DNA of 64,000 nt from Gordius sp. MW1 (Eukaryota; Nematomorpha; Gordioida; Gordea; Gordiidae): assembly GCA_964036665.1 (NCBI GenBank), contig OZ038533.1:8144413-8208412 (forward strand). The letters are read 5' to 3'. The notes below the pieces were generated by a model. That model saw nothing but the letters and a program-made list of their open reading frames with translations. It was not told the DNA's origin and ran no database searches. The position numbers and the translations under genes were made by a program. Below are positions 20,671-56,561 of this stretch, in pieces. Position 1 is the stretch's first letter, and each line of letters begins with the position of its first letter.

Positions 20671-20910
20671 TGTATGATGGTTGTCTAGAAGTAAGGGTAG
20701 GTTATAAACTTTTTCACACACACAATATACTTAATAAGAATGAATAGCGAGATTGAATGTGAAAGAAGATATTAAAGTAATGCCGAATGTGTAAAAGGTA
20801 ATGCGGATGTTGATAATTCCAAATGCGATGGATAGAAGAATAATGGTAACTCCAATTCGACGTAAAAATCCAATTCGTTACTTGATGTCGCCAATATCTA
20901 AAACGCCACA
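20671..20910 (-). repeat. 3' LTR of the gypsy element
   Basis: 240-bp copy, very similar to the interrupted LTR at 24790-27218. Confidence 0.8.
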
Positions 20911-21063: not shown

Positions 21064-23961
21064 TCAGCTTGAGTTTCGTCGGCAATCTGTAAGGATGGCT
21101 CCTCTCAGATAGCAGGGTTTTAATCTGTCTATTGAGACTGAATCTCTTTTACCATTTTTTCCTATGATGAAGTATTTTGGTTCGCGTTTTAACACTTTAA
21201 ACGACCCGTCGTTTGGTGAGGTGAGTGGCCTGCGAACTGTGTCGTTTCTGACAAAAACATGAGAAGTTTCTAACAGATTTTGACTAACTTGTTCTTTTGG
21301 CTTCCTGTGGTGTTGCGGTATATGGTACGGTATTGCCATCATTGCCTTACTTAGTTTGTCTACAAAGTTATGCAATTCCATTTCCGGTTGTTTATTGGCC
21401 TCAGGTTGCTGTAGAAAATAGTCTCCAGACAGTCTTATGTTAATTCGTGTTAGTCCATGTCTTCCTTGATTGTGGCACGGATACCAAGTAACACGAGTGG
21501 AAGAACTTCACTTCTTTTGATTTTTTCGGTGGCTTTTAAAGATGCCTTAATTGTCTGTGGAAGTTCCACAAAGTCCGTTGGCGGATGGGTGATAGGCAGT
21601 GGTTTTTATATGCCTGCTTCCTAATGTGTTGGATAGTTGTTTGAAAAGTCCTGACTGAAACTGCGATTCTCTGTCGGTAGTAATTGTACTTGGGACACCA
21701 TAATTGGCTATCCAAATTTCAATAAGCTTGGAAGCGATTTCTTCGGTAGATGTTTCTTTGAGTGGAACGGCCATGGGCCATCTCGAAAAACGATCGATTG
21801 CTGTAAAAATATATGTAAAACCGTTTGGAGGTGGTAGTGGTCCAATTAAATCGACGTGTATGTGTGAGAATCTTGCGAAAGTCCCGGGCGTCGTTATAGT
21901 GTGTTTATGACCTTTGTTTAGTTGGCATTTTAAACAACACTTAGCCCAATTTCTAACGTCTCGGTTCATCGAAGGCCATACATACACTCTTGAAATCAGT
22001 TTGCTTGTAGCTCGTATGCCAGGGCGAGAAAAAGCATGAAAGTGATCGAAAACCTTCCTTCTGAGTGTTTCAGGTAATACCGGTTGGGGTTTAGTGGTAG
22101 AAAGATCACAAAGAACTTTACACTCTGATCCTGGGATATTAATTAGTTGTAACTTTAGGGATCATGAGATTTTTAGTCCTTCTAAGTATTCATCAGTCAT
22201 CTGGTGCTTGCTAATTTCCTCCAAATCAGGAATTTTTGGTAATTTAATAGAATCTATTTCCATCCGGGAAAGAGCGTCCGCTACTGTGTTGCTTTCGCCC
22301 TTAATGAATCGTATGTCAGTAGTATATTGCGAGATTAGGTCCAACTGTCTTGTTTCTCTTGGAGAATACTGGTCGGGTTTTGCGTTGAATGCGTAGGTGA
22401 GTGGTTTATGGTCGGTATAGATGGTGAAATTACGACCTTCTAAGATGTGGCGGAAATGCTTTATGGCCAAATAGATTGCGAGAAGTTCGCGGCCAAAAGT
22501 GCTGTACCGGATCTGAGTAGGTTGTAATTTCGCTGAGAAGAATGGTAATGGGTATACCTTGTCCGAAATGGTTTGCTCCAAAACTGCTCCGACCGCCGTG
22601 TCATCGGTGGTCAGTGTGATTTTTGTGAGGGGGTCCATATTCAAGAAGGTTAGTGTGGTAAAATTCGCTAATGCTGCTTTTGATTCTTCGAATGCCTTGA
22701 CCTGAACGTCGTTGAAGGTTCCGGACTTCTTAGACTTCTTCAGCAAATCGGGAGGTTGAAGGGTTCAGGAAATTCCGGGTAGATACGGTAGAAATTTATC
22801 ATTCGCCAACTCCGAATTTGCACTTCGAAGGGTAGATTCTAAGATCGTACTCTTGCAATCCATGAAAAACGATTCTCAAGTGCTGTTCGTGTTCCTGCTC
22901 CGATGCGCTAGCTATGAGGATATCATCGATGTACGCTTAAACGCAATCTATTCCTCTTAGGACTTCATCAATGAATCGTTGGAACGTCTGTGCTGCGTTT
23001 TTTAGTCCAAACGGCATTCTTGCGAATTCGTACAGGCTGAAAGGTGTTGTGACGGCTGTTTTGCATACGTCCTTTGGCGCAACGGGGATGTGATGGTAAG
23101 CTCTTACGAGGTCCAATTTGGAGAATATGTTTTTGTTGTGAAGAATGGCAGTAAAGTCGTGTATATGTGGTGTAGGATATCTGTCCGGTATTGTGACTTT
23201 ATTCAGGCCTCTGTAGTCTCCACAAGGTCTCCAATCACCTGTCTTTTTGGCGGCTAAATGCAATGGGGCTGCCCAGTTGCTTTCTGATTTCTGAATGATT
23301 CCTAAGTCTAACATATATTCGAATTCTTTTTTCGCGACGTTCAACTTTTCCGCTGTCAGTCTTCTAGGACGAGCGCACTGGGCTGGTCTTTTCGTTAGAA
23401 TGTGGTGGAGTACATCATAAGGTGGAATCTGTCGGTTGAAGTTTAGAGGGGATATGGGTGATAGAAATTCGTGCAGAATGCATCAAATTTTGTGCTGTGA
23501 TTGCTGAGTGCTACACGGATACCGAATGTCTGGTGTGGTGAGGATGTTCCTCTCGACGTTAATCGTGTGGTGCTGTCTATAAGTCGTTTATTGTTGATGT
23601 CCACAACTAACTTATAGTGGTGCAGTAAGTCAGCTCCAATTATAGGGGTGTGTACGTTTGCGACTAAAAATACCCATTTAAATTCCCGTCGTAAGCCTAG
23701 GTTTAAACATAATACGACTTGTCCGTATGTGTGGATGTTGGTTTGGTTAGCCGCTTGTAGAGCTGGGCCATATGGGATCAATGGATGTTTGGGAGGAGGT
23801 GGAATGATGGTAACTTCAGCGCCTGTGTCGACGAGGTATTTCCGTTGGGTGGACCGGTCGAATAAATAGAATAGGCGGCTGAAAGTACGGCCGTTTCCTA
23901 TAGTCGCCCATATGGGACGGCCCATCAGTTTTTTTGTTGAGGGGTGGTATTGAAGGAGCAA
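21064..23961 (-). pseudogene. gypsy pol: protease, RT, RNase H, integrase
   Basis: Domains from right to left: aspartic protease with V-D-T-G-A-E (about 23830); reverse transcriptase with K-L-D-L-V-R-A-Y (about 23120) and Y-I-D-D near 22925; RNase H with L-T-T-D-D-T (about 22605), F-G-R-E-L-L-A-I and Y-T-D-H-K-P-L-T-Y (about 22405); integrase with C-x2-C (about 21930), H-V-D-L-I-G-P (about 21850) and T-T-D-R-E-S-Q-F (about 21675). A stop just before Y-I-D-D, frame changes near 23400 and 22750-22930, and a shift in the last integrase segment break it. The copy is dead but recognisable over its full length. Confidence 0.85.
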
Positions 23962-24015
23962 GGTTAGGTGCAGTTTCTTGCTTCATTCTTGAACTTCTGA
24001 TGGGACCAACATATG

Positions 24016-24768
24016 TCAGTTGGGCGTTGTCTGGATGATGACCTTGATCTGCTTGACCGTCCATGTCGCCCTACTGCTGTTGGGATTGCCTGTTAATTGA
24101 TTTATTCTGAGTTCTAATTGTGACACAGCTTTGATAAGTTCCTGCATTTCGTTTGTTTGAATATTGGGAATAGGAATATTGGGAATAAGAATATTGGGAG
24201 TAAGGTTATTGGGAGTAGCTACAGATGCTAAGCTGCTGACTCTGAAAGTTTCATGAATCCTATCAGCAACGTCTGCGATACGATCCAGTGATTGATCATC
24301 TCCCTTAGTAGTCAAAATGCTTACCACATGTTGGGGTAGCTTGTCCATCCAGAGGCTTCTAAAAATCTTTTCGTCCATCACATTATTACCTAAACGAGAT
24401 TTTAGATATCTTACCAACTGGGAGGGGGTGCGGTCTCCAAGGAATATCTCAGAGAATAAATTCCTTATTCTCTTCTCATCACTGTCTCCTAATCTTTTCA
24501 CGATTGCCTCCTTCAGTTTGTCGTAAGGGGCAGATTCTGGAACCGTGAATATGAGGTCTGCTACCTCTTCCGCGACTTCTGGGGGTAGCAATTCGACAAG
24601 GTAAGAATACTTAATCTTCTGCGAGGATATGTTGCGTGTATGAAACACGGCTTCTACCTGTGACAACCATATGCGTACATTTTTAGGATGGAATTCAGGA
24701 ATTCTCACATGAACTGCGCTTTCTCTTGGTTCATTGGAGTCTGGAGTTGTTGTGTTTGTTTCCATCAC
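24016..24768 (-). CDS. gypsy gag
   Basis: An open 250-residue frame starting about 20 bases inside the 5' LTR. It has a retrotransposon-gag core (residues about 20-160) with R-I-W-L-S-Q-V-E-A-V-F, L-G-D-R-T-P-S-Q-L and L-W-M-D-K-L-P, then a low-complexity N-I-P/I-P-N-I repeat region (about 195-215). It overlaps the start of the protease frame at 24016-24064 in another frame, so pol may have been reached by frameshifting. No CCHC knuckle was seen. Gag assembles the particle. The rest of this element is broken. Confidence 0.75.
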   Translation of the reverse strand: MMETNTTTPDSNEPRESAVHVRIPEFHPKNVRIWLSQVEAVFHTRNISSQKIKYSYLVELLPPEVAEEVADLIFTVPESAPYDKLKEAIVKRLGDSDEKRIRNLFSEIFLGDRTPSQLVRYLKSRLGNNVMDEKIFRSLWMDKLPQHVVSILTTKGDDQSLDRIADVADRIHETFRVSSLASVATPNNLTPNILIPNIPIPNIQTNEMQELIKAVSQLELRINQLTGNPNSSRATWTVKQIKVIIQTTPN

Positions 24769-25817
24769 GTTTCAGGTCACCAATTATAATGTATGATGGT
24801 TGTCTAGAAGTGAGGGTAGGTTATAAACTTTATTTCACAAACACAATATATTTAATACGAATGAATAGCGAGATTGAATGTGAAAGAAGATATTAAAGTA
24901 ATGCCGAATGTGTAAAAGGCAGAGCTGTTAAAGTTACTTTACCACAGTAACTAGTTAAGTTACAGTTACTTTCACAAAAAATGTAACTAATTACAGTTAC
25001 AGTTACAAATTTTCAAATGTAACTGATTACAGTTCCAGTTACTTAACTGATGGAACTAGTTACATATAAAGTTACTAAAAACAATATTTTTTGATATTAT
25101 TTATTTTAACATTTATATAAAAATCAGAAGGTAATAAATGATGATTCGATTTCAATGATACGTTATTTTCTATATTGTCATCTAATAAGCTAGTTCGCTT
25201 TTTTTTATTATATAAACTACTTCTTCTTTTGCGCTCATTTTAAATAATTTTATACTTTAATACTATTTTATGATATAGGTTATACTGGCAGACAAAGTGA
25301 ACCGGAAGTAAAATTTAAATGATATTGATACAATTTAATTAATGCCAAGGCATTTGAAAAAGTAACTTTATTTATGAAACATCTAGGGCCTTTAAATTTT
25401 GCCATATTTATATAAAGAAAGGATCAAGAAAAATAATACATGGTATGAGGGGTATAGATAGTGTATTCCCAGCGCAAATAATGCCTTAGAATCAGCCAAT
25501 AGGCTAATAAAGATGAATTCTCACTGAGAGAACGCCTACCACTTAGTAGGTTCAAGGTCATGGCTTTAGATAAGGTTAAACTCTGAATATAAATACTCGA
25601 AAAAATTGTCAAAACCTATGAAAGATTTGAAGCTATGGACAGAAGGTTATGAATTTGCAAGAAATAATATTAATAGCCTCCAAAAAACATCTTAATATTA
25701 CTGAGTATTGTATACCATCAAGAAGTATTATGATTAGTGAAAATAACATTAGCAATGTCAAAAATTTTTGCTATGTGAACTTCCAAATGATTGTGAAAAA
25801 TGCTTTAAAGGCAAGTG

Positions 25818-25985: not shown

Positions 25986-26439
25986 ATTTAACACTGATTA
26001 TTTAACAAACTTTAGGGTTTTGAAATGAAAGTTGTATCCAGCAAAATTTGTCTATTTTCCATTTTCTGTTAATAATTATTTTGTAATTATATTTAAATAA
26101 AAATTTGATTTGCTATATAGTTTAAGATTGATAACTCTCAATAAATTTGCAAATAAATACATTATAAACACAAGCATAGTAAAATTTAAAAAGGGAGAGA
26201 CAGAGCATTTTAGAATGGGAAATATAGATCATTACTTTTCATAGCTTTTCTAATTTGCCATATTTATTTGAAGGGTGAGAAGGGAGGAAAAAATTCAAGA
26301 CACTAAGATACCTTTTAATTGATAATTAACAATCAGGTCTCCAATCTGTTTAATGTAGCCAGAATAAAAAACTATTTTAATTTTCACAAACTCAATTTAA
26401 GTTTATTTTTATAAAATATTAACGCTAAATAGATTAATA

Positions 26440-26545
26440 TTGAGTATTATTAATTAAAATTACTGAGCATTTTATATTAATAACTGAGCATTATTAGGTT
26501 TATTACTGAGCATTTTTGAATTTTTTACCGAGCATTTAAATAACA
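26440..26545 (+). repeat. ACTGAGCAT reiteration
   Basis: Four or five degenerate copies of TTACTGAGCATTTT at ~25-35-bp spacing, ending at TAACATCC. The same array and end occur at 50665-50925. Confidence 0.7.
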
Positions 26546-27218
26546 TCCATTAAAATATATTATTATTTCAATAACATTCATTAATATACTAAAGTAATTT
26601 ATCAAATGGCTTTCAATATTTAAATTTAGAGGTTGGGCCAAAATCATTTGATATTTTAAGTTGATAAAAATTTGTTTTGCACATATATAAAAAGAACTGA
26701 ACAGTAGATAAGAGATAACCAATTAAAATTTATTAAATGTTCATTCATTTTTTACCTGTGTGTCACTTCTTTAAATTTTTGGAATACAAATTTGTACTAA
26801 AATATTTTATATAATATTGATAATTTACTGATAAAATAGAATATTTATTAGAAATTCAAATTTTCAAGTTTGATCCGCGAGAAAATTTAAATTAAAGTGA
26901 AGTACACAAACTAGACGTGTAATTTGAATATTTAATTAAAAAAATTTTAATTTATAACTTTAGTTACACAGTTACTGAAATAATGTAACTAACTACAGTT
27001 ACAGTTACCCTGAAGTAAAAGTCACTGGTTACAGTTACTTTACTGAAGAAAAGGAACTAGTTGCAGGAACTGTTATAACTAGTTACTTAACAGCTCTGGT
27101 AAAAGGTAATGCGGATGTTGATAATTCCAAATGCGATGGATAGAAGAAAAATGGTAACTCCAATTCGACGTAAAAATTCAATTCGTTACTTGTTGTCGCC
27201 AATATCTAAAACGGCACA

Positions 27219-27586
27219 CGATTGCCTGCCCAGCCCTTTGGCCGAGTGGGCCCAACAGCGGGTCCGACATTTTGCCTGTTTAATTTGTAATTGCAAATAA
27301 AGTATCAAAAATTTTTGTCAGCTTCCCCCCCTCCTTGGGAAAATCCTGGCTACGCGCCTGTATCCACACCAGCAAAATTGTATGTTAACAGATTTACTTT
27401 TGAGTCTAATCTATATTGGTTTTAGTCTATGGTTTATAACTTATTATAAAAACATATTTTTCACATCTTGCACTATCTGTTGCTCTAAAATTATGCAGGT
27501 ATAATCGAAGGCGATACAACAGCGTAAAGGATACCACTAGAGGAAAAATTATTAAAATTACCTTGGTGCCTGGTACCTTAAAGTCA
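27219..27586. other. candidate original 5' flank of THOC3, plus a MITE end
   Basis: Includes a C-run and TCCTGGCTACGCGCCTG MITE terminus (about 27325-27360), then about 225 bases of unassigned sequence that reach the left copy of the GTCAACATG duplication. If the 27596-33027 insertion is removed, this DNA lies directly upstream of the THOC3 ATG, so it is the best candidate for the ancestral 5' UTR and promoter. Confidence 0.5.
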
Positions 27587-27595
27587 GTCAACATG

Positions 27596-28055
27596 GGCCT
27601 AGGCTATGTATTCTCGATTCAGAGTGATAAATAACAAAACGTAAAATGCATTTCTTAAACGTTCCATTCCCGAGCGCAATCATCGCGTTCGTTAATTTGT
27701 GTGTTATTGTTTACAAATTTTTTTAAATTCGCCATTTTTGCTTGTTCTAATCCATATGGTAAGACAACATTTTGTGGCAATATAAAGGTATGATAAATAG
27801 ATATATTAACTATTTTCCTAGATAAATAATTTTGAATTTTTAATCTCTTCAAACAAGATTTGTTCATTAATTCAACATTTTGTGGCAATAAAAAGGTATG
27901 ATAAATAGATATATTAACTAATTTCCTAGATAAATAATTTTGAATTATTTTCTTAGATCAGTTGCAAAAGAGGTGGGAAAAATACATAAAACCATTCAAA
28001 GGTTCAACATATTTGTCTCATTTACTAAAACATCAATCAATAGTTGATTAACCAT
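27596..28055. repeat. left inverted arm
   Basis: Inverted copy of 32470-33027, diverging in the number of internal ~107-bp repeats. Confidence 0.85.
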
Positions 28056-28493
28056 TGTATTTAAGATTTACAACATGCATCTAATAGGTTTTTTTAATGA
28101 GGTTGAAAACCTTATTTGTTATCCGTGTAATACAATAAACCTTGTGTTGTTGCTCATGTTATTGTTGTTAGCAGTGTTATATTCAACATATTAATACTAT
28201 TTGTGATTCAGGGAGAGTTACAATTATTAATTGCTATGCAATTTATATTAATAAGAATGACCATTTAAGTATTTTATCAAATTTATAATATGATTTTCAT
28301 TAGAAATCATTAGTATAACAATTAAATCTACAATTTTGCATACATATTCTGACAAATCCTTAAATATTAGTTTGTAAAAATCTGAATACATTTATACATA
28401 TATCATTAAGAATATAAGTGCTGTTTTCTTATTTTAAGAGTTAATTGGTAGTATCAGAATCCTGTATGTTCTAAAAGCGAAAAGCTTTGTGCA

Positions 28494-28611
28494 TGTAGTA
28501 TTTATTTACGATATAGAATTATAACAACCGGACAATAGTAATGTATTTAGAACAAGGAAAACATATGTAACATAAAATATATACACAAGGAACGCTTAAC
28601 AATATATTACA
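28494..28611 (-). repeat. 3' LTR
   Basis: 118 bp; differs from 31943-32060 at one A/G position by eye. Confidence 0.88.
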
Positions 28612-28626
28612 ATAGTCCCCCCTAAG

Positions 28627-31600
28627 TTAATAATATTCTTCATAGTATCTTCTTGGAGGTTGGCGTCGTCGCTGCGGTCGTGGACTAATTGCCGTGGTTA
28701 CTTGTTCTCGTACTTCCCTCTCGTCATCACCCCCTATCCAGTTCGTTACATTCCCCAATGCTCTTCTTAACTGGTCTGCATGCTTCCGCTTTACTCGCCC
28801 TTCTGCCCAAACATCGTAGGACCAATCATTCTTTTTGTGATTCACTACTCCAGCGTGCCAACCCTTTTCCATTTCATTTTTTACCCATACTTTATCTCCT
28901 TCCTCAAAGGTACGGTAAAAAGCCTTCCTATCGTGATAATATTTCTGCTTCCACATATTATCTATTGTTATCTCTCTACCTGATCGACGTAGCTGGTGCA
29001 AGGAGGACCTTATTCTTCTTTTGAACATTAGTTCACTAGGAGACACGCTGGTAGTATTATGGGGAGTCAGTCTATAAGTCATCAAGACTTGAGCAATCGA
29101 CTTTTCTATCTCGATTTGTCTTAAAAGTAGAGTAAAACCGCATTTTCAAAGTCTTAATAAATCTTTCACATAAGCCATTAGATTTTGGGTGATATGGGGA
29201 TGTCCGAACGTGTTTAATTCCGTTTGCTCTTGTGAAAATTGCGAATTCTTGTCCCGTAAATTGTCCCCCATTGTCCGTGACTATGACCCTAGGCACTCCT
29301 AACCGTGCAAACCATTCCCGCAACGCCTTGATAATTCCATCTGAATGTAGCGAATTTAAAATCCTTACTTCTGGCCATTTTGAATACGCATCTACTAATA
29401 CTAGCCAATATTTGTGGTTAACTGGACCAGCCAAATCGATATGTACACGGTCCATTGGCTCCTCCGTAGTAGGCCATAAATATAAAGAAGATTCGGCCAT
29501 ATTCGGTCGAGTTTGTTGGCAGCTTTGACACCTGTGAACAAAGTTTCAATATCATCGTTAATATTTGGCCACCAACAATAAAATTTTGCTAGGTCAATCA
29601 TGCCCGATATCCCCGGATGTCCGGTGTGCAGATTCTCGAGCACAGCTTGCTTTAAATTTTCTGGAATCACTAACCGATTTTGCCAGTAAAGTAAATTATT
29701 TTCAACGGATAATTCATTTTTCTTTGGGTAAAATAACTTACGAATAGTTGCATCGTTGGCAGGTTTGCTCCAATTGCAACGGATCATATCAATAACAGAA
29801 TTTAATCTTGCATCCCTCCTTGTTCCTTCCACCAACGTCTTCCTATCAAATTCTAAATCTTCAATCATGTGTATGTGAATGTCTTCACTAACATCTACAA
29901 GGGTAGGTAACCGCGATAATGAATCTGCTATTTGGTTCCTATCACCAGATATATACTCAACTTTAAAATCGTATGCCATTAATTTTGTACTCCATCTTTG
30001 TAATCGCAAGTTGCAATTGTGATGATGTCCCTGGCGACCAAATATATATTGTAAAGGTCGATGATCTGTTCTCAATACGAATGTTCTCCCATATAGGTAT
30101 TGATGGAATTTATTAACAGCATATATGATACCTAAAGCTTCTTTATCAATAGTGGAATATTCTTTTTCTGCCGGGGTTAAAACTCTTGATGCATACGCTA
30201 TGGGCTTTTCTTTCCCATCAGGCTCCACGTGCATAAGTACCGCCCCCAGTCCTGTATCACATGCATCTGTGTATAAAACTATTGGTTTATTTAATGAATA
30301 AGGAACCACACTATCTTCTTTTGATATTAGGGTCTTTAATTTATCAAAACATTTTTCTTCCTCTATTCCCCATTCCCATTTAGAGTCCTTTTTTAGAAGG
30401 TTGTGTAATGTGACGCATTGTGGTTGAAGCATCGGTATAAATCTTCCTACATAATTCAATAACCCTAAAAATCCTTTGAGTTCAGACTTGTTTGTTGGTC
30501 TTTTGCAGTCCCTTAAGGCCAAAATTTTCTCTTCCGTAGGTTGAATGCCTTTAGAACTAATTTTATGACCTAAGTAGACAACGGAATCTTGAAGGAACTT
30601 TATTTTACTCGGGGTTGTAGTTATCCCTACTTCTTCAAAACGTTTTAATACTTCTTTAATATTTGACACATGTTGTTCGTCATTTATTCCCGTTATTATA
30701 ATGTCATCTATAAACACTGCCGTGTTGGGAATTCCATATAAAAGGTTGCTTATATACCTCTGAAATATTAAAGGGGCAACCTTGATTCCAAATGGTAGTC
30801 TGCGATAACGATATAATCCCAAGTGTGTTGCAATTGTAAGTAACCTTGCACTCCGTTCAGACATTTTCAACTGCAAGAATGCGTCTTTTAAATCGATGAC
30901 GGTAAATTTATTGCCTCCAATCAGTTTTGCTGTAACATCTTCAAAAGTAGGCAACGTATCCCCAACATCGTACAAATAATCATTTAATGTGACTTTGAAG
31001 TCTCCACATATCCTGATTGATTTATCTTTCTTATAACGGTTTACGGTAGGTGTGCACCATTGAATTGCAGTGTTTGAATCAACCTTTTCGATTACATCTT
31101 CTTCCAATAATCTTTTAATCTCTTTTTCAATGGCCTCCCTCATTGGAAAAGGTACCCTACGCGGGGGCAAACTTATAGGCCTATAAGGGGTTTTTAAATG
31201 TAAATCTACCAAAAAATTGTTTACTACGCCCAATTTCTCTGAAAATACTTTGGGAAATTGATCAATCAAATTTTCTAACTTAATTTGTCGAATATGAATA
31301 TTTTTTGGCAATTCAAATCCAAATTTTAAAATCTCAGGCAACCCTAACATTAAATCACCTTCATTGACTACTATCACATAGATGTCAAAACATTTATCAT
31401 TAATTTGCCCTTTAACTAAACACCTACCTAAAGTTTTGATATTATAATTTCCATAACCTAATATGCTAGGACATTCTGTTAACCCGGGCTGACCTATCTC
31501 TATCCAAGTCTGCTTATCTATTACAGTAGCCTGAGCAGCTGTATCAAACTCAAAATTATAAGGTTTCCCATTTAATATTGCTCTAACCAAAGCTCTATTG

Positions 31601-31941
31601 ATTTTATAAGTTTTAATACATCTAATGTAATTGTTATCATTTCCTCTATTTAAATAATTCCCATTCATTTCCTTATTGAATTTAGTCTCGAAAAAAAATA
31701 GAATTTTTACTCTTAAATAATAATTATTAATTACTAATTCATCAAAAGTGCAATTATTAATAAGTTTCGGATATACCTTAAGCTTTAACTTTTTCAGGGT
31801 AGGGAGGCCAATGAATGTTATGAGATATTTCTTCTTGTTCTCCGGCGCGACTTCTTTAATTTCCATGGCATTCTCCAACACTAACAGCCAATCTTCTATG
31901 TCTACTTGATCTGTGAATTCTTCTATTTTGACCAGCGCCAT
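28627..31941 (-). pseudogene. gypsy polyprotein with one main frameshift
   Basis: The long frame (31941-29401) starts 2 bases inside the 5' LTR. It holds a short gag-like segment (residues about 1-75), a protease region with F-D-T-A-A, reverse transcriptase with V-I-D-L-K-D-A-F and F-I-D-D-I-I-I, RNase H with L-Y-T-D-A-C-D and T-D-H-R-P-L-Q-Y, and the H-x-G-H of the integrase zinc finger. A frameshift near 29540 moves the rest of integrase (H-I-D-L-A-G; V-T-D-N-G-G-Q-F; C-E-R-F) to 29500-29072. A further shift near 29085 precedes the C-terminal segment (29085-28627). The gag is far shorter than usual, so an internal deletion is likely. Confidence 0.85.
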
Positions 31942-31942
31942 T

Positions 31943-32060
31943 TGTAGTATTTATTTACGATATGGAATTATAACAACCGGACAATAGTAATGTATTTAGA
32001 ACAAGGAAAACATATGTAACATAAAATATATACACAAGGAACGCTTAACAATATATTACA
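31943..32060 (-). repeat. 5' LTR
   Basis: 118-bp partner of 28494-28611. The coding ATG begins 2 bases inside it, so any primer-binding site (TGGCGCTGG-like) must overlap the coding start. Confidence 0.85.
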
Positions 32061-32469
32061 CATATAGTTACCAACAATTTATTAATTCTATTTTCAAAAC
32101 TTATTTTTTAAATGTTAACTCAGATAGTTACCAACAATCTTCTATTTCATTTTTTATAATAGGCACATATAAAAATGTCAAAAGCATTTTCAATGTTTTT
32201 ACCTGATGTTATAATCTAAAAGTTACTCAAGATAGTTACCATTACCAACAATCTTCTATTTCATTTTTTATAAAATGCACGTATAAAAATGTCAAAAGCA
32301 TTTTCAAATCTAATTTTTTATAACATGCTATCTTAAAAAATACAGTTTATTTAAATTGAGCCAAATTCAGCAAACCTTTTAGGAAATTTATTGAATCTCT
32401 AAAAAAACAACACTCAAATATGTCAGCTGCAATTTATTATTTTTAAGCAATAAGAAACAATGGTGAATC

Positions 32470-33027
32470 AACTATTGATTGATGTTTTAGTAAATGAGAA
32501 AAATATGTTGAACATTTGACTGGTTGATGTATTTTTCCCACCTCTTTTGCAACTGATCTAAGAAAATAATTTAAAATTATTTATCTAGGAAAATAGTTAA
32601 TATATCAATTTATCATACCTTTTTATTGCCACAAAATGTTGAATAAATGAACAAATCTTGTTTGAAGAGATTAAAGATTTAAAATTATTTATCTAGGAAA
32701 ATAGTTAATATATCAATTTATCATACCTTTTTATTGGCACAAAATGTTGAATAAATGAACAAATCTTGTTTGAAGAGATTAAAGATTCAAAATTATTTAT
32801 CTAGGAAAATAGTTAATATCTATTTATCATACCTTTATATTGCCACAAAATGTTGTTGTTTCCATATGGATTAGAACAAGCAAAAATGGCGAATTTAAAA
32901 ATTTTTTTGTAAACATTAACACACAAATTAACGAACGCGATGATTGCGCTCGGGAATGGAACGTTTAAGAAATGCGTTTTACGTTTTGTTATTTATCACT
33001 CTGAATCGAGAATACATAGCCTAGGCC
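32470..33027. repeat. right inverted arm, now the 5' flank of THOC3
   Basis: Inverted copy of the left arm. It ends GCCTAGGCC at 33027, seven bases before the THOC3 ATG, so any THOC3 transcript starting locally must start within transposon sequence. Confidence 0.85.
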
Positions 33028-33033
33028 GTCAAC

Positions 33034-36000
33034 ATGCAAGCTGATATTTTGAGGTTAAAAAATTATTTCTTAACTCATAATAAGACACGAGACTTTAATG
33101 CACATTTGTCGAAAGTACATTCTGTGGCCTGGAATTGTAAAGGCGATAAACTGGCGTCAGGGTCATTTGATAAGACCGCATGCATTTTTTCACTTGACAA
33201 AGATAAATTAGTAATTTATTATTCATATATATATTAATGCATATAGATTAAAGAACAAACTCTCAAAGGTCATTCCGACACTGTAGATCAGCTATGCTGG
33301 CATCCATCAAATCCCAATCAGTTAGTTACTGCAAGTGGGGATAAGAGTATTCGCCTTTGGGATATAAGATCTTCAAAATGTGTATCAAACATAATCACAA
33401 AAGGCAAGTTTTTTAATGATAATTATTATTGTTACTACAAATTAATAATATTTTATTCATCTGTGTCACACTATTTTGTTTATGTTTAAATACCACAATT
33501 AACATACAATTATCAATGAAACCATTTTATTAATTGCTTTAAATGTATTTTAAAAGCCCTCAATATTATTAACTAACTAAAAAGATGGCTGTTAAAATTT
33601 TTCTATAAAAGTATTCATTTATTGATTATTAGTTTTTTTTATAAATTTAATTAGAGATTATATTTCTATACTATAATTTTGATTGTCAACCTATGTTAGG
33701 TTATTTATATAAATAGACAAATCTAATTAGCTGAGTACTTGTATATAACAGAGTTGCATGGCTGATAATATTATTATGGCAGTGATATATATCATAAGCT
33801 AGAAAAATAAAACTTTGGGCCATATAATCTTGTATTAGATACCACATGGGCTAAAATGAAGCAGGAAATTTATTGTTATATCTTGAAGCCTAAGTTAAGT
33901 GGTGAGGGAGAATTGGAGGCTAGATAAGGGCTTATCTAAAAACATATGATCTGTCTTCCCTTAAGAACCAACATGGGTGAAGCCAAAAGGGGGCAGGGAG
34001 GGGTGGCTGCCCCCTCTTAATCCAAAAATTTGGCTAAATTTTCAAAAAATGATTGTTTTGCCCCTCCCTAAATCATTATTGTTCCCCTCTAATTCCAAAG
34101 CTGGCTACGCCCATGAGGACCAACAATGGGGATGATGTCCTAAAACATTATGAGATAATGCTATAGGTACTAATTATGTTGCTCAAGTGTTAGCCCACTA
34201 GAAGTGATGCTCAACTGGTCCATTAAAAAGGGAATTTATGTTATTGTAAGGCAAGTAATAAGTTGTGTATGTTTTAACGTTGTGATAGGGATACTGTTAA
34301 ATTTTACAAAACATTAAATATAAAAAATTAAATGCTTAAAGCAATAAACCTTATAAATATAATTAAATGGGTCATTTTAACCATTTTCCATCTTACCCCA
34401 CACTGTAAAAAATATTTTTTTTAATTATATAATTAAATTAATATTATTTACAAAGCTTTTTATTATACAATAATATGTTTACGAATAACTAGGCAAGATC
34501 TAAATTATATATAAGTTCAATCCTAAAATTTTCGCATCCTTTTTACTTAGGCAACAACTAGGGATTATTGTTGTACGTTACAACTTTAAATCCTTTACCT
34601 TGGCCAATTTTACATGTTAATGATTTATATCTTTGTATTTAACCACTGACTTTTTTGTATTACACAAGTATATTTAACTTTGTTTTTGTTAAAATAAACT
34701 TTTTAATCATGAAAAAATGAAAGTTAAGTTATATTGTAAAAAATGTAGTTTAATCATCTAATACCTTAAAGAAAAAGCCTAGTTTGTTTCTTTTTTTAGA
34801 GAAAAACTTTTTTATCAGCCTTTATGTACTGAATTTTATTGTCCTCCGTTAATCTTAGGTGAAAATATAAATGTGTGCTGGTCTCCAAATGGTAAAACTA
34901 TTGCAGTTGGTAGTAAAGAAGATTTGGTTACTTTCATTGATGTTACAAATTGTACTATACTAGCTGAGGAGCAGTTTAAATTTGAGGTCAATGAAATTAC
35001 ATGGAATAACACGAACAACTTATTTTTTTTGACAACTGGTCAGGGAAATATAACCATCCTAAGGTAATACATTAGTAATATTTATTGGGTTAATTTGTTT
35101 TACCTCTATTAACATTTTATCACTTGTTTCAATTTAGTTACCCAGATTTAAAATTACAACATATTTTACCAGCACATCCATCAAATTGTATATGTATCAA
35201 ATTTGACCCAAGTGGAAATTATTTTGCTATAGGTAGTACAGATGCATTAGTCAGCATTTGGGATTCTCATGAATTAGTATGTTTGCAAGTTCTTTCTAGG
35301 TAATTTAAAAGACATTCCAATTATCAAAAATTTTAAAATGTTTAACAATTTGTTTGGCATTTTTCAATGAAAATCGAAAAATTGCTTATTATTGACATAG
35401 CTAAATTATTTAAATTATAATGTACATTGCACCATATTTTAGTCATTAATTTTGTAATAATCATTGTTTAAGGTCATAGTGTAGCTTCAGCTAAATCAAA
35501 ATATATCCAATAGTTACACTAATTTATATTGATTTATTTTTTAATATTTTTTTTTATTATAAATATAGACAAATATAGGTAAAACCAGGGCTAGGATGGC
35601 CATAAAAAATCAAATTGTGTTTTAAAAAAAAAAAATTTCGAATTTTTCTGTTGGAATATAATTTTACAGACTATTTACTATAACATTAAAAAAAAAACAT
35701 TTTTTCCCACATTGACCTCAAAATTCCAGGGGAAGTCGTTAGCTCATACTACTTTTATGCCAACTTAAATTAATAAGGCGATTAGATTCACAGAGAATGC
35801 CATGTAATATGGTTACATTGACATATTAAAGATAAAAGTGGATCAAGAAAATAACCTCACTTATGTACCCATTAGACAGACTTTTGGTGAAAATTTTTTT
35901 TAAGAGTTTATAAATTTATAATCATTGTCTATTTCTCCAACACATAACAATTTAACCAGTTTTTTCATAACTAAATCTACTTATCATTTGTTTTTATGAT

Positions 36001-37195
36001 TTAAAATATGTAAGGAATGTTGAGCACTAAGCCCTCTGCTGCTAGCCCCAACTCTTATATTATACACATACTAATTTAACATATTATTGCCAATTAAAAC
36101 TTTATATTAGATAGAATATATAGAGAAATATCCCTTTTAAGCTAAAACTTAAATCAATTAAAAATATACAGCCAAAAAAGTTTATGTGCGAAATTCGAAT
36201 TTTAGCAAAGCTGCTTTACGCCCAGAAATACGATTTCTTATATTAAATGGTTGATTTCTTTTTTCCAAGCAACAAATATTTTACGTATACCTTATGAAAA
36301 TACACATGTTCAAATTGTTTCATGATTATTACTTTAAAAAATTGTTACAAAGATACAATTGACCCCTATCCCCCGTTTGTGTTTTGTTTAACCAAATATC
36401 TACTGATCTGTAAATTAAAGTTAAGGGTCTAAAATAATTATTAATACATCTTTTTTTTAACTATATGTTAGTTTTATCCTCTAGCATTTTTTAAGTTATC
36501 TCCAAAGTTTTTATATTTTTCACCATTCGTTTTGGTTACATTTTATTAGGCCCTCTTCTACGTTTCATAGATAAGCTAGTTTTTGACATTGTCATTAGGA
36601 GTTACAAATTAATTGTTCCTATAGAAATGTTGTTCTTGGGCAACTTTTATAATGTTGGGAATAGCTATCCTTAGGTTACAAAGGCGTTGGCAAAATAAAG
36701 GAGCATAATTGTCTAATTATATGATTATTTAGTTTTTGCGTTTTATAATACTGCGTTTTATCGTAATTTATGTCAGATTGGAATGGCCAGTTAGAAGTGT
36801 AAGTTTTAGTTATGATGGCAAAGTTTTGGCTAGCGCATCTGAAGACCTCATTATAGATTTAGCGAGGGTTCCTACAGGTTATTTAATTTAAAGATAAATT
36901 ATGTTATTTTAAATCTTTGGTTGATTTTTTGTTGTATAATAAATGTTTATCTTTCAATTTAGGGCAAAAGATTGGGGAAATAAAATGTCAAGCTTCCACT
37001 TTTACTATAGCCTGGCACCCCACTCAGTATCTTCTAGCTTATGCTTGTGATGATAAAGACAAAACAGACAAGGATGCTGGTACCGTGAAACTATATGGTT
37101 TAACGGATGATGAAAACGATGATAGAGCGAACCTTGAATCTAATCATCATTCACTTAATTCAAGCACGAATAAAGAGCATCGCTCAAACGACTAA
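33034..37195 (+). CDS. THOC3: THO complex subunit 3 (WD40 mRNA-export protein)
   Basis: Six exons: 33034-33210, 33247-33403, 34859-35063, 35138-35299, 36777-36877 and 36963-37195. They total 1035 nt, 344 residues, close to the ~350 of vertebrate THOC3. Phases agree at every join. Introns are 36, 1455 (GC-AG), 74, 1477 and 85 bp. WD40 blades are visible as V-H-S-V-A-W, D-Q-L-C-W-H-P with I-R-L-W-D, I-N-V-C-W-S-P, V-N-E-I-T-W-N, C-I-C-I-K-F-D-P, V-R-S-V-S-F and F-T-I-A-W-H-P; T-K-G-E-N-I-N and E-E-Q-F-K-F-E-V-N-E-I are family signatures. A polar tail follows residue ~320. In the family it acts in the nuclear THO/TREX complex, coupling transcription to mRNA export. The start ATG lies in a transposon target duplication. 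Its 3' end converges with the EGR-like gene. Confidence 0.95.
33211..33246 (+). other. 36-bp mini-intron of THOC3
   Basis: GTAATTTATT...GCATATAG. Exact removal joins D-K-L to I-K-E in phase 0 at a position where THOC3 homologues are continuous. Confidence 0.88.
33404..34858 (+). other. GC-AG intron of THOC3
   Basis: The donor is AAAG/GCAAGT, the strong consensus of GC donors; the acceptor is ATCTTAG. Only this donor gives the conserved T-K-G-E-N-I-N across the junction: the nearby GT (33407) would bring in an immediate stop. It contains the MITE at 33972-34115. Confidence 0.85.
33972..34115. repeat. 144-bp hAT-like MITE in a THOC3 intron
   Basis: Ends CATGGGTGAAGCC and GGCTACGCCCATG. The flanks AGAACCAA (33964-33971) and AGGACCAA (34116-34123) form an 8-bp duplication with one mismatch. 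Short G-runs and C-runs lie inside the ends. Confidence 0.75.
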
Positions 37196-37255: not shown

Positions 37256-37266
37256 TTTATTTTATT
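37256..37266 (-). terminator. EGR-like polyadenylation signals overlapping the stop
   Basis: Two AATAAA hexamers on the minus strand (37266-37261 and 37261-37256). The first overlaps the TAA stop at 37264-37262, implying a very short 3' UTR that overlaps the THOC3 3' UTR in antisense. Confidence 0.6.
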
Positions 37267-38975
37267 TTCGATGGATTTTTGTGTGCCGGCTCCTTTCATC
37301 GCTGCGAGCAAATTTTCTTTGACATTGAAAACAAGAAAAAGGCTTTTCCCCTGTGTGCGTTCTCTTGTGCGTTGTTAAATGGTCTGAACGTGTGAAAGTG
37401 CGCGGGCATACGTTACAACTAAAAGGACGAAAATTATTGTGAATCCGTAGGTGGCGATTTAATTCATCTTTACGGGAAAAGTATTTTCCACATTGTGCGT
37501 AGTAACAGGCAAAAATTTTGAGGATAGCTTGTCTACTTTTCAACTCTTTCGATGTCTTGGGTTGTTTTGTTGCTGAAGACCTTCGTTGTTTTGAGATATT
37601 AATAGTTGTCAGGCTTTTATTAATTTTATGCGAAGATGTTTCTGATTGTGTATCTCCTAACAATCGGCGGTCATTTGTTGCTTTTCGTACCAGCTGAGTG
37701 GCGTACAATTCATCGCTCGACTTTATATCCTCACTATTCGATGTAGTGGTCGTTAACTTGGTGTTTAATATGTGTTGAGTTGGAGTATTTGGAATTAAAT
37801 AATTTTCTGGCAACGAGTTGTTTTTAGATTCTACGGTTTCGATGATGTCAAATTTTTCCACTTTTTTTAGTATCCCTGGTTCGTAATCTTGGTGTACAGG
37901 CGATCTTTTATTATAAGGTTCATTTGTATAATAATTGTTACAAGGGACGATTGGTGCATTAATCATATAATTAGTGTAAGCAGTTCTATCACTTTTAGGG
38001 GAATATTGAGAGTGCTCTTTGTCATGTTCGTTTTTTGCTATTTTTTATATAATATTTATTATTTAGTTACAATTTATATGATTTAAATTAAGTTGTAGCG
38101 CTAATCGTTAACATTATTTTAAAGTTAAAAAATCTTTAAATATACTAATGAGAGCAGAACTTTTTTTCGCCCCTTTATAGCAGATTGCCATTCAATTATA
38201 TTTAGGAGCTAATTATACATGGTTTGCTTATTCTTATTTTAATTACTATAATTTTTATTTAACCTTGATATTTTTATCAAATATTTTATCCGTTGCTTAA
38301 ATACATAAATTTTATAGCAGCTTTGCGTTTTTAAAGGGTGTTTAATTACACATAGTATTTATGCTACCTAGGCTATTTAAATTCCGCTATTTACATGGAA
38401 TAGTTGTTGCCCATAAAAATATTATTACTTAAGGGTGCATTTCATTAATAAAATTTAACCCTTTTTCCATTTTGAAACATTTAATTTTGTAATATAGCCT
38501 ACAATGGACCCAGAGAAAAAAAAATCCCATTAAAATATAAAAATTTTTTGCAAATTTTACCGGAGATTGAATACTTTGGTTCGTAAAAGCCTTGATTATT
38601 GTTGGAATTTGGGTTACAGTTGTTTTGTGCGTTATAATACATATCTAAATTTTGGTCTAAATTATATATGGGGAAACTTTGCATATTAGTATCAAATGAA
38701 GGAGAATACCACCTGTTAGTTCGCTCGTGATATTTGTTGGAAAAATTTGTGATAGCCATATTGTTTAAAGTATTTTGCTTTTCAATATAATTCTCTTTTT
38801 GTGTGTACAAGTTTGAAGATTTCATTATGGTGGATTCTGTTCGAAATGTGGACCTTGAATTCCCTAGTTCATCATCTATAAGAAAACTTAAGTTATTTTC
38901 TGCCGCACCATCATTCTCATTGGCGAGTGAATAGATAAGACAATCTATAATATCATCGTCAAAATATGATAACAT
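37262..38975 (-). CDS. EGR-type C2H2 zinc-finger transcription factor
   Basis: Two exons: 38975-38561 and 38037-37262. They total 1191 nt, 396 residues. Splicing CCG/GTAAAA to TAG/CA joins in phase with a 523-bp intron. The C-terminal 83 residues form three C2H2 fingers with EGR-like recognition helices R-K-D-E-L-N-R, R-S-D-H-L-T-T and R-S-D-E-R-S-R and linkers such as T-G-E-K-P, which predict binding to a GCGTGGGCG-like site. The N-terminal 300 residues are polar, Asn/Ser-rich and otherwise unrecognised, as is usual for this family. EGR proteins are nuclear, often immediate-early, regulators. The start is the first ATG of an open exon, ~150 bp below a TATA box. The finger set also resembles other Krüppel-like factors, but the R-S-D-H-L-T-T/R-S-D-E-R pair favours EGR. 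Confidence 0.9.
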
Positions 38976-44154: not shown

Positions 44155-45121
44155 ACTGCCTTGCCTACTTTTGAAGATGTTACAGCAAAACTGATTGGAG
44201 GCAATAAATTTACCGTCATCGATTTAAAAGAAGCATTCTTGCAGTTGAAAATGTCTGAACGGGGTGCAAAGTTACTTACAATTGCAATAAACTTAGGATT
44301 ATATCGTTATCACAGACTACCATTTGGAATCAAGGTTGCCCCTTTAATATTTCAAAGGTATATAAGCAACCCTTTATATGGAATTCCCAACACGGCAGTG
44401 TTTATAGATGACATTATAATAACGGGAATAAATGACGAACAACACGTGTCAAATATTAAAGAAGTATAAAAACGGTTCGAAGAAGTAGGGATAACTACAA
44501 CCCCTAAAGTAAAGTTCCTTCAAGATTCCGTTGTCTACTTAGGTCATAAAATTAGCTCTAAAGGCATACCTACGGATGAGAAAATTTTGGCCTTAAGAAA
44601 ATGCAAAGGACCAACAAACAAATCTGAACTCAAAGGATTTTTAGGGTTATTGAATTAATTATTTAGGTAGATTTATACCGATGCTTCAACTACAATGCGT
44701 CAGATTACACAATCTTCTAAAAATGGATTCTAAATGGGAATGGGTAAAAGAGGAAGAAAAATGGTTTGATAAATTAAAGACCCTAATATCAAAAGACGAT
44801 AGTGTGGTTCCTTATTTATTAAATAAACCAATAGTTTTATACACAGATGCATGTGAAACAAGACTGGGGGCGGTACTAATGCAAATAATTTACTGTACTG
44901 GCAAAACCGGTTAATGGTTTTAGAAAATTAAAAGCAAGCTGTGCTCGAGAATCTGCACACAGGACATCCGGGGATATCGGGCAAGATCGACCTACCAAAA
45001 TTTTATTGTTGGTGGCCAATTATTAACGATGATATTGAAAACTTGGTTCACAGGTGTCAAAGCTGCCAACAAACTCGACCTAATATGGCCGAATATCCCT
45101 TATATTTATGGCCTACTAGGG
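44155..45121 (+). pseudogene. degraded, internally deleted gypsy pol copy
   Basis: Same family as the element at 28494-32060, opposite orientation. The reverse transcriptase (V-I-D-L-K-E-A-F; F-I-D-D-I-I-I) is nearly identical up to a stop at 44467. After a frame break, RNase H begins (L-Y-T-D-A-C-E) but jumps directly to the end of the RNase H-integrase linker. The integrase zinc finger (H-x-G-H; C-x2-C) then ends at 45121. No LTR flanks it. Confidence 0.85.
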
Positions 45122-45225
45122 AAGGAGCTGTGCTGTTTCATCATTTTGGATGTCTGCAGACATTTTTTCGTTGTGTTAGGCGCATGTTCATTGGGTTTCC
45201 TAAACAAAAAATGCCGCAATGTCTA

Positions 45226-48512: not shown

Positions 48513-51500
48513 TTAAATCTTCAAAGTTTTGTTGGTTTCGGCCCATTGTGGGAAAACATTGGTTCCCAACATATAATTAGCGTAGGTATTAATAGAGATA
48601 ACCGATACGATAACACCGATGACATTGACTATAAAACCGGGTTTGACCTATTTTTTGCAAAAATTAAACGTTGAAATAATAACATTTGCTTAATTTATAT
48701 ATTTGAAAATCCAAAAAAATGATCTTAAATATTTTAATCGCCCAAATGACAATAGAACTAGTTTTTAGATATTAAAATTTTATAAATAAATTGAATCTAA
48801 CAATATAAATGCGCATTTCTTTATTAATAATAAGTTCACGTAAATAAATAACGTTATACCATATCCCAAAAAGACATATCCCCAGCAGTATATACAATCG
48901 CATTAGGTCCGGTTGCGATGGGTAACATGAATGAATATGAAGCAGCCATGGTGATGGGGAAAACGAAATAATAAGGATGCACTCTTACACTCACGGCCTA
49001 AGATAAAGGAAAAAAATAAAGGGTTTTAGTAATAAAAAATACATATTTCAGGACAATCATTTTTGTTTTAAGAAAATGTTTCCACGCTTAATCGTTCACT
49101 CACAATTTATTGAATCAAGTTTACGAGACCAGCCCTTATAAAATTTTGTAGGTTAAGAAAGTAACGAATATTTAATTACCATTTCTGCCATCAGGGGGAT
49201 CAAAATGGAGGCAGTGGAAATGTTACTTAAAACCTCGGTCAGTGCGGATGTAATTATCGCAAATATCAAAACGGTCCAAATTGGATTAAAGTTTTGAAAC
49301 ACCTTAAACGATTCCACTAAAGTGGAAGAAAGGCCAGATGTCTGCAAAAAAATTTCATATATATACCTTAAAATTTAAAGAACATTCATATAAAAAAATT
49401 AAAAATTTTATATTTAGAAATTTAAAAATTATTTTTATATAAATATTAGGTTAATTGTGAAGTAAAAACAAAAATCTATAGGAGTTAGAGGACAATTGAT
49501 CCGTTATAGATCATATAAATTAATGAGATTATGTTACATGCTTTATTATTTTACGCAATTAATAATACAAAGAAAAAACTTTCGTTTAAAAAATATATTT
49601 TTTAAATATTTCATCTAATGTATGTTTTAAATGAGAACAAATTATTGTGCTCAGTAATTATTTTATTTTTTGCTCAGTCGAATATTCAAATGCTCAGTAG
49701 AATAAACAAATGCTCAGTAGAATAATTAAATGCTCAGTAAATAATTTAATGTTCAGTAATTTAATTATTTGTTCAGTGTAATATTCATTTGTTCAGTTTT
49801 TTATTCAAATCTTGCTCAGTAATTTTTTTATTTATGCAAAGTAACTAAGAATTAGTTTTTAAAATAAAATCCTAGAGCGAGATTCGAACCCAAGATATCC
49901 AAGTACGAGTCTTGCGTGTTTCCCATGGAGGCAAAGTGCTCGCCTGAAAAATGGTTTATTTTTGTTTATATGTTAATTAAAATAAATTTTATTTCATAAA
50001 CTACCTCCTCCAAGTGCAATTGTCCATCGTTTTGTAAACAATATATTTGCAAACATGTTGTAGGGTTATCAATTAAACTTAAATTTTGCCAACCACCTAA
50101 AGAAGCCAAAAGTGTGCCTATATGGCAAAAAAGAAAACGAGGCAGACCCTCAAAGGCAAAATCAGATTTTATTGTTCAGTAATGGTAAGTTTAGATTATT
50201 TAACATTGATCAATAAATTTTAGGTTTTTGAAATGAAAGTTGTCTCCAGCAAAATTTGTCTATTTTTCATTTTAAATTGTTTATTATTATTATTTATCTG
50301 TATTTGTAAATCTTTGTGATTATATTCATAAAATTTTTTATATTTTCCCTTTGATTGATAAATCTCAACAAAATTTGCAAAAAAATACATTAAAAACATG
50401 TAAATTTAAAAAGGGAAAGGCAGAGCATTTAGAATTGGAATTATAGGTCATTACTTTTTATAGCTTTTTTAACTTGCCATTTATTTATTTGAATTGAGAG
50501 AAGGGAGGACTTAAAGGGAAAAATTCAAGACACTAAGATACCTTATAACCTTTAAAAATTTAACAATCAAAATAAACTATTTCAATTTCCACACATTCAA
50601 TTTAACTTAATTTTTACATAATATTAGTGCTAAATAGATTAAGATTGAGTATTATTTATTAAAACTACTGAGCATTTTTTTGAAAATACTGACCATTTTG
50701 GATTTATAACTGAGCAATATTAAGATTATTTACTGAGCATTTTGGATTTATAACTGAGCAATATTAAGATTATTTACTGAGCATTTTGGATTTATAACTG
50801 AGCAATATTACGATTATTTACTGAGCATTTTTGAATTTTTTACTGAGCACATTAATAAAATACTGAGCATATTTTACTGAGCATTTTTGATTTTTTAACT
50901 GAGCATTTAAATAACATCCGTTTTAAATGTGGATTCAGGTCTCGTGCTAACATTCTGATCACCCCCCCCCCCTCTTAAAACAACATCTTATAAATTTGTA
51001 GTTTTAGGAAATAATAGCCATTTGGTCTAATGATTTTATCACAACCGGGAAGTGCGTTAATAAGGCCTAAAGCCATTTGAGCTGTGTGTATCGCCTTCCT
51101 ATCACCACTGTAACCATTGGCGCAAAAATTATTATCTAAATATGGGTGCTCCTATGCTGTTTAATTTCGTGTTTGTCCAGTTAAGTTCAGAGATAGATTT
51201 TAAAAGTGAGCGAAAACTAGGCAAAATAATCCTTTAAATTATCTTACTGTTCAAATTAAATTTATTTTTTTTGTAACTTAAATGTTTATTAAAGTATACA
51301 AAAAATTACATACACGAATAAAAAAATATTGTCTAAGAATTTTTATAACTAGATTAAATCGTTTGCTAAGGAGGATCGATTCAACTAATTGTCGGTTATG
51401 CTTAATAAAACAAGGTGTGTCACACTTACAATATTAAGTAGTAGAGGGCTACAAAATAAAGTAACAATGTAACAATTAAACAAAAATTGCAATATAAAAA

Positions 51501-54319: not shown

Positions 54320-56561
54320 TAGCCTCAAAAAAATAACTGTTTTATAATACATGGCCACCCTTCTGCTCGTTGTATCTCCTCTGGGAAATTCCCACCTGCT
54401 AGCCCTCTTATTCCACCTCTTGCCTCCATAATAGAGGATGCTCCTCATAATGCCCCTTGCTCGTCCAACTCAGATACTCAATCCTTATACAGCCCCATTA
54501 TTACCACTTCTTTGGACTATTCTTGGAGTGATTCTTTTTTAGCCTTAACCTTCCCCAATACTATTTCAAGAATCCCTAGGGGAGCTCGCCCGGCTTCTCA
54601 ACAGTTTTTAATCAACCTTATAACTTCCATAACAAACTCTCCCTCAAATCTTACTAACAGGGATAAACTTTTCAGGCTAACCTTTCACACCTTATATGTA
54701 AGAGGACCCAACGCTGAAAATCTGTCCAAACATATTAAAGACTCCTTTTTAAATTTCAATATTGATAATATTTTTAAAAATACCCCCCAGCACAAACAAT
54801 CCCCAAACTCCTCCACTGCCAAGCAAACTGCTAAACTAATTTCTAAAAAAATTGATAACTTTAACCCCAAAAGTGCTCTAAGAATATTTTATGACAATGA
54901 CTCAATTGCTCCTTACTCCCTTGATTCATACCAACAACTCAAATCTAAACATCCCCCATCCTCATCGGCAAATCGACTCCCTACCTCAGCCTCTTCCATA
55001 AAACTAGACTCATCCGACATTCGGGAAGCCATCAATTCCTTTCCCATCGACTCTGCAGCAGGCCTTAATGGTTTCCGCCCTGTTTATTTACAAGACCTGA
55101 TTAACCTCCAAAATGTGAGCGCTGCAATTTTACTCAACTCTATAACGTCCCTATGCAATTTAATTGCCAACGGTAATATTCCTACCGAAATAATCCCTAT
55201 ATTGTTCGGCGCTAAACTCATCGCTATCAAAAAACCTGATAATTCGGTGTGACCCATTGCTATCGGGAGTGTTTTTCGACGTATAATATCAAAACTCATT
55301 TGTAAGACAATCAAATCCAGTTTAAGCGACAAGTTAATTCCTCATCAATTAGGATTTGGGGTTAAAGGCGGCTGTGAGGCTGCCAGTCACGCTGCGCGGA
55401 TAAGCCTAAAACAAATTCCCTCCAATCACTGCATGGTTAAACTGGACTTTGCCAATGCTTTTAATAATATTCGCCGAGAAACGATAATAAATACCTTCAT
55501 TGATTAGTTTCCAAAGTTTTCAAATTACATCAGTTTAAGTTACGATTGTATATCAAAACTAAAGTTTGGGGACTTTTTAATTGATTCGGCAGAAGGTATT
55601 CAACAGGGAGACCCCCTAGGTCCACCTCTGTTTTGTCTTGGGATCAAAAATTTAACTGAATCCCTCTCAAACCAATGCTCATTATCATTAAACGTCTGGT
55701 ACCTGGACGATGCTACCTTATGCGGCCCTCCTGAAGAAATTTCCAAGGCCATTCTTTTAATCCAACATTATGAAACCTCCCTAAACTTGAGATTGAATAT
55801 CTCTAAATGCGAGATATATCAGTGCCCGGATACCAACAAATTTCCCATTTTTAAGCCCTTTTTAAAAGTTGAATTGATGAGTTTTACTCATCTAGGCTCT
55901 CCAATAGGTGGGCAAATCGCCTTAAAAGAATTTTTACATAGCCACTTATAAACTCTTACATCGAAGATGGATATTCTTAATACCCTCCCCAAACACCACG
56001 CATTTTATATCATTAAAATCTATTTCAACATCTCAAAAATTCAACACTGCTTCCGGTCCTCTTCAGCCTTTTTATTGCCCGAGTAAAAAGCTACGATAGC
56101 TTCATGAAGAATACTTTAGAAGCAATTCTTAATATCAAATTCAGCACTTCCTCGTGGCTCCAAGCCTCTTTACCTACTAAAGCTGGCGGCTTGGGCATAC
56201 GCCCAGCTACCTCAATTTCGTTAGCTGCGTTTATCTCTTCTTATAAATCTGCCCAAGGATTGATCGACCGTTTAATCACAACAAATGAGGATCCGTCGTT
56301 TGTAGAAGCCCTAGACGTCTGGTCAGCCAACGTCAACCCAGGGACCCCCTTCCCCATAACCTCTAGACAAAAGGATTGGGATGCTGGCCTCGTATCGCGC
56401 TCCGTTGATTACCTCTTATCGAGTTGCGACGCCCGCCAGCACTTCAACCTTAAATCTTTAGTGACGGATCGGGTCACGAGTGGCTTGAAGCTTATCCTAG
56501 CTCACTTTCTGGATTGATGTTGGAGGACCCAGAGCTAGCATACGCCATCGCCCTCAGACTA
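54320..56561 (+). pseudogene. non-LTR retrotransposon, 5' and reverse transcriptase part
   Basis: An open leader domain (54512-55252) ends where a TGA replaces the first residue of P-I-A-I-G-S. The frame continues with R-R-I-I-S-K-L-I, G-V-K-G-G-C-E-A-A, K-L-D-F-A-N-A-F (about 55440), G-I-Q-Q-G-D-P-L-G-P (about 55597) and the catalytic Y-L-D-D (about 55700), then L-N-I-S-K-C-E. Several stops (one replaces W in I-D-x-F-P) and a shift before 56104 kill it. It is interrupted at A-L-R-L by the hAT at 56562. Confidence 0.82.

Follow-up and report, generated by a model that had tools for sequence, protein, structure and literature searches.

The start codon of a gene for THO complex subunit 3 (THOC3) has very probably been invaded by a DNA transposon that itself carries an LTR retrotransposon. 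Within the 64-kb stretch of DNA analysed here (the window), the THOC3 coding sequence now lies 5.4 kb from its former upstream DNA, with protein and start context both preserved. Judged from its sequence, the insertion is neat and its kind ordinary, being one more transposon insertion at the 5' end of a gene. It nevertheless offers a clean natural test, at a presumably needed gene, of whether the arm of an element can supply a promoter. A search for transposable element insertions at THOC3 recovered no report with these words in its title or abstract. The features on which the analysis draws are as follows:

27361-27586, plus strand: left flank, which once adjoined THOC3 on its 5' side and presumably holds its native promoter (BLAST and motif reading)
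27587-27595, plus strand: left target-site duplicate GTCAACATG, with an ATG at 27593
27596-28058 (inner edge approximate), no strand: left inverted arm, starting GGCCTAGGCTATG, with two sub-repeat copies 108 nt apart
28059-28493, no strand: left middle domain, whose stop-free segments of at least 40 aa have no Pfam match above cut-off
28494-32060, minus strand: LTR retrotransposon of 3,567 nt within the foldback-like element (LTRs, Pfam domains)
32061-32456, no strand: right middle domain, holding a 66-nt repeat pair
32457-33027 (inner edge approximate), no strand: right inverted arm, with 2.7 copies of the 108-nt repeat, ending CATAGCCTAGGCC
33028-33036, plus strand: right target-site duplicate GTCAACATG, including the THOC3 ATG at 33034
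33034-37195, plus strand: THOC3, 344 aa, hand-predicted exons 33034-33210, 33247-33403, 34859-35063, 35138-35299, 36777-36877 and 36963-37195

Insertion site and target-site duplicate

The 9-mer GTCAACATG occurs in the window, on both strands taken together, only at the two sites listed above. Since two or more copies were also present in 5 of 100 shuffled controls (mean 0.28 copies), it is the position of the 9-mer and not its count that constitutes the evidence. Both copies directly adjoin the inverted ends of the element, which starts GGCCTAGGCTATGTATTC and finishes with the exact reverse complement of that sequence; over their outermost 122 nt, which include these inverted termini (GGCCTAGGC...), the arms are identical at 120 positions and differ at 2. 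The bases adjoining the two 9-mers are unlike (A and C on the 5' side, G and C on the 3' side), and the duplicate is therefore exactly 9 bp long. At the spacing of 5441 nt a 9-mer match was found at 2 of 58,550 positions, the GTCAACATG pair being one of the two. The position of the 9-mers and the inverted ends together confirm an insertion, which would have proceeded through a 9-bp staggered cut at the THOC3 start codon that left GTCAACATG duplicated on both sides. The element that entered would be a foldback-like DNA transposon, non-autonomous and probably related to the Mutator elements (MULEs).

An earlier note on this DNA had described an inverted-armed element at 27596-33027 flanked by exact 9-bp repeats, and these boundaries are borne out by GTCAACATG at both edges and by the inverted outer ends. 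Its description of a single 5.4-kb transposon holds as regards an insertion with a 9-bp duplicate; the inserted DNA, however, comprises two elements, one nested in the other. The note had also stated that everything upstream of the ATG was replaced: the upstream DNA has indeed been displaced by 5.4 kb, but the 6 nt before the ATG are kept, as the duplicate consists of the ATG and these 6 nt, making the start context identical to -6 in both copies. The local context GTCAAC-ATG is accordingly retained at the right copy. From the left ATG a frame of 13 codons runs into the element (MGLGYVFSIQSDK, stop ending at 27634).

The nested LTR retrotransposon

Examination of the interior of the element revealed direct repeats at 28494-28611 and 31943-32060, each 118 nt long, identical at 117 of 118 positions and of the form TG...CA, with a purine tract adjoining the LTR at 28611. 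Between them, on the minus strand, an 849-aa frame contains the Pfam domains RVT_1, RT_RNaseH and Integrase_H2C2. The integrase core (Pfam rve) lies in a different frame, so that the frames of the retrotransposon are broken as they stand; a further frame at 28627-29145 has no Pfam match. LTRs are thus found together with the reverse transcriptase - RNase H - integrase order that marks the Ty3/Gypsy type, which we take to be the class of the nested element. Retrotransposons of this type are expected to raise short target duplicates of 4-6 bp. None was found at the two ends (GTGCA and CATAT), and this mismatch indicates that the nested element may have been rearranged or recombined. It further departs from the Ty3/Gypsy type in its short LTRs (118 nt) and in its location within a DNA transposon. 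Two blocks of the same family, 92% and 94% identical to it, lie at 44161-45128, with a part missing between them. The pol frame and the LTR have no relative in a viral collection, where little was expected.

Arms, middle domains and class placement

As 28494-32060 is a separate LTR retrotransposon, the DNA-transposon part amounts to only 1,865 nt (898 + 967). None of the 10 stop-free segments of at least 40 aa in its arms and middle domains has a Pfam match above cut-off, to a transposase or otherwise; two weaker hits stayed below it, one to DUF402 in the right arm (E 0.0043) and one to Insulin_TMD in the left middle domain (E 0.31). The part thus displays the hallmarks of a foldback element, namely long inverted arms that contain tandem repeats and, the LTR element aside, little or no coding sequence in the middle. 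The ratio of observed to expected CpG is 1.76 and 2.01 in the outer arms (27601-27800 and 32801-33000 respectively), against 0.91 for the window. Searches of the window with the 18-nt arm end, allowing up to 3 mismatches, recovered nothing beyond the element's own two ends. Likewise, BLAST located the arms nowhere else in the window, which we counted against the insertion reading, since a further copy would have been independent evidence that the family is mobile. There were no exact matches to the arm end in viral and prokaryote collections, which were not expected to hold it, and no relative of the arm sub-repeat or of the empty-site join in the viral collection, where again little was expected.

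The arms, the 108-nt sub-repeats and the 9-bp duplicate appear to fit the Foldback/Mutator-like group, and membership of the MULEs is a likely guess. Target duplicates in the Mutator superfamily range from 8 to 11 bp (PMC6446971), and exactly 9 bp was found here. Among the published elements compared here, Tm1 of root-knot nematodes comes closest (PMC3169594). It shares with our element, and with Tetris of Drosophila virilis, long composite inverted arms with internal tandem repeats (PMC3169594, PMC4079207). Both have arms of variable length, groups or copies without transposase, and target duplicates of 8-10 bp, 9 being the commonest in Tm1 (PMC3169594, PMC4079207). In Tm1 the two arms of a copy are similar and rarely identical (mean 93.15%), and a Tm1-like copy with a nested unrelated element is on record (PMC3169594). 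The sub-repeat unit differs, being 108 nt here against about 14 in Tm1 and about 220 in Tetris (PMC3169594, PMC4079207), as do the ends, GGCCTAGGC being unlike the end motifs given for Tm1 (PMC3169594). In contrast to the Tm1 and Tetris copies described, the nested component here is an LTR retrotransposon and the insertion lies at a start codon. Tetris, which likewise comes without a transposase, was placed in the Mutator superfamily by its authors on like grounds (PMC4079207).

With the transposase not found in this copy, placement in a particular MULE group is impossible. Two groups with animal hosts offer comparison: Phantom, with duplicates of 8-10 bp where indicated and arms of 18-613 bp or none, and Rehavkus, with a 9-bp duplicate and arms of 26-400 bp (PMC6446971). 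The absence of a transposase match sets the present copy apart from both groups as described there.

The THOC3 gene and its start codon

Residues 5-317 of the predicted protein match THO complex subunit 3 chains, which we take to be human, with an E-value of 1.3e-144. When the whole protein was compared with solved chains only two sequences reached 1e-80, both of them THO complex subunit 3. The first two exons alone ranked a many-repeat WD40 protein first (2ymu, 13 stretches) and THOC3 second. Among solved chains, the predicted full-length WD-repeat product is hence closest to THOC3, by which we identify the gene as a putative THOC3 orthologue. Four of its introns are GT-AG, and intron 2 (33404-34858) is GC-AG with the donor AAG|GCAAGT; intron 1 (33211-33246) measures only 36 nt. 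A retrocopy is ruled out by these introns. The gene is single within the 64-kb window, in which no second THOC3 was found, and a back-translated peptide pattern recovered no relative of the protein in viral and prokaryote collections, where little was expected. Two claims of the earlier note agree with this: the ATG at 33034 in the right copy opens a THOC3 frame, here a six-exon, 344-aa match to THO complex subunit 3, and the coding sequence was kept whole, its frame unbroken from that ATG. Tail to tail with THOC3, on the minus strand at 37262-38044, is a C2H2 zinc-finger frame (Pfam zf-C2H2), presumably EGR-like by its look.

BLAST of 26001-27595 against the window (E 1e-5) detected repeats as far as 27360, and 27361-27595 gave no match, leaving only 235 nt of left flank clear of repeats from the window. 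Here TCAGTC at 27584-27589 runs into the target duplicate. TCAGTC is an initiator motif of arthropods, and may not be one in this host; within 40 nt TCAGT precedes 40 of the 2,253 ATGs on both strands of the window, in a post hoc count on a motif already noticed. This lends mild support to an old transcription start that may have lain 7 nt before the ATG and now be cut off, in which case the insertion would have split the start codon from the transcription start.

When the empty site is joined in silico, the 51 codons upstream of the ATG are open in frame back to a stop at 27437, and they contain no ATG. The duplicated ATG is therefore probably the native THOC3 start, unless there is an upstream coding exon. 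The same 51 open codons could be read as the trace of such an exon, once continuous with the gene, with the insertion having truncated the N-terminus of the protein; moreover, 34 residues precede the aligned part in the solved chain 7znk_C as against 4 in the window protein. Yet without an ATG these codons would need an intron further up, and their translation bears no THOC3 likeness visible by eye. We accordingly consider a truncated N-terminus quite improbable. A more radical objection would be that unrelated pieces were joined in assembly, the region being repeat-rich. Exact duplicates beside exact inverted ends at both junctions are the signature of transposition and not of a misjoin, making such an artefact very improbable indeed.

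Expression of the inserted allele

If a transposon insertion over a native start codon is accepted, it remains to be asked from where the allele might be transcribed. An RNA from the old left promoter would now meet the left ATG first and be translated for 13 codons before a stop. At the other end, the duplicated GTCAAC would keep the start context of THOC3 at the right copy. The last ATG upstream of this copy in the right arm is at 32972, with an in-frame TAG at 33022, so that a productive message would arise most simply from an RNA start within 32973-33033. The frame of another right-arm ATG, at 32940, overruns the THOC3 start to 33044; an RNA begun at 32940 or further upstream would include this ATG, which we counted against a start in the arm. 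Should the allele make THOC3, we infer that its RNA may start in the outermost right arm, most simply in 32973-33033, a proposal we put somewhat below even chances. No positive promoter signal was found in this interval. The sequence TCACTCT at 32996 was considered as an initiator and dropped, as the loose pattern precedes 1,205 of the 2,253 window ATGs, and a bacterial promoter scan was set aside as uninformative for this genome. That the right arm is the working THOC3 promoter in the species, with the target duplicate giving the start-codon context, is the stronger claim and to our minds an unlikely one.

The arms of plant MULEs bear promoters, and these serve genes inside the element (PMC3310237). 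A mosquito MULE makes duplicates of 8 or 9 bp, and 41 of 60 insertions in yeast fell inside genes or no more than 1 kb away from them (PMC5225508). In yeast, ADE2 with an artificial 500-bp derivative of this element in its 5' UTR showed leaky expression; with a longer natural derivative, expression was blocked (PMC5225508). In an aphid, a heterozygous MULE insertion in the coding sequence of a channel gene silences one allele, and the authors call the homozygote almost certainly lethal (PMC8201860). Both the yeast and the aphid cases favour the alternative that the inserted allele is null or strongly reduced in function and sits in a heterozygote or alternate haplotype, THOC3 being made from an uninserted allele or another copy (PMC5225508, PMC8201860). 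By its ends the insertion also looks young (outer arms 120 of 122, LTRs 117 of 118, duplicate 9 of 9), and an unbroken coding sequence therefore says little about use. We rate this alternative as a possibility to be taken seriously, at rather worse than even chances.

The old promoter might instead still be in use, with the whole element removed as a 5'-UTR intron. In favour of this, atg|GTAAGA at 27759 in the left arm resembles a donor and scores, under a simple matrix, among the best 0.3% of the window's 3,020 GTs. Right-arm acceptors, in contrast, rank low among 3,064 AGs, the best at the 22% level and that closest to the ATG (33025) at 55%; the matrix is generic, and weak in that it places 2 of the 5 genuine THOC3 acceptors only at 18% and 30%. 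Furthermore, the retained first exon would keep the left ATG with its 13-codon frame, and six AATAAA motifs lie in the element on the same strand. Removal by splicing hence appears improbable.

A start in the right arm would have a counterpart in maize Mu1, in which Barkan and Martienssen (1991) reportedly found an outward-reading promoter near the element end that alters the expression of a neighbouring gene. The effect there was experimental, whereas the present case rests on position and sequence. If the right arm does drive THOC3, a part of the mRNA-export complex would now be expressed from a transposon end. This complex, THO, has been linked to transposon RNA in flies.

Other repeats in the window

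Beyond the left flank, 27099-27218 is 96.7% identical to 20791-20910, and the two segments flank a retroelement with reverse-transcriptase frames (21064-24771), of which they are possibly the terminal repeats. The segment 26004-26537 is about 76% identical to a repeat at 50212-50742. The window yielded no tRNA. Further reverse-transcriptase matches lie at 22937-23482 and, below cut-off, at 3891-4718 and 55508-55951, and what resembles the remnant of a hAT transposase, scoring under the curated cut-off, at 58648-59043.
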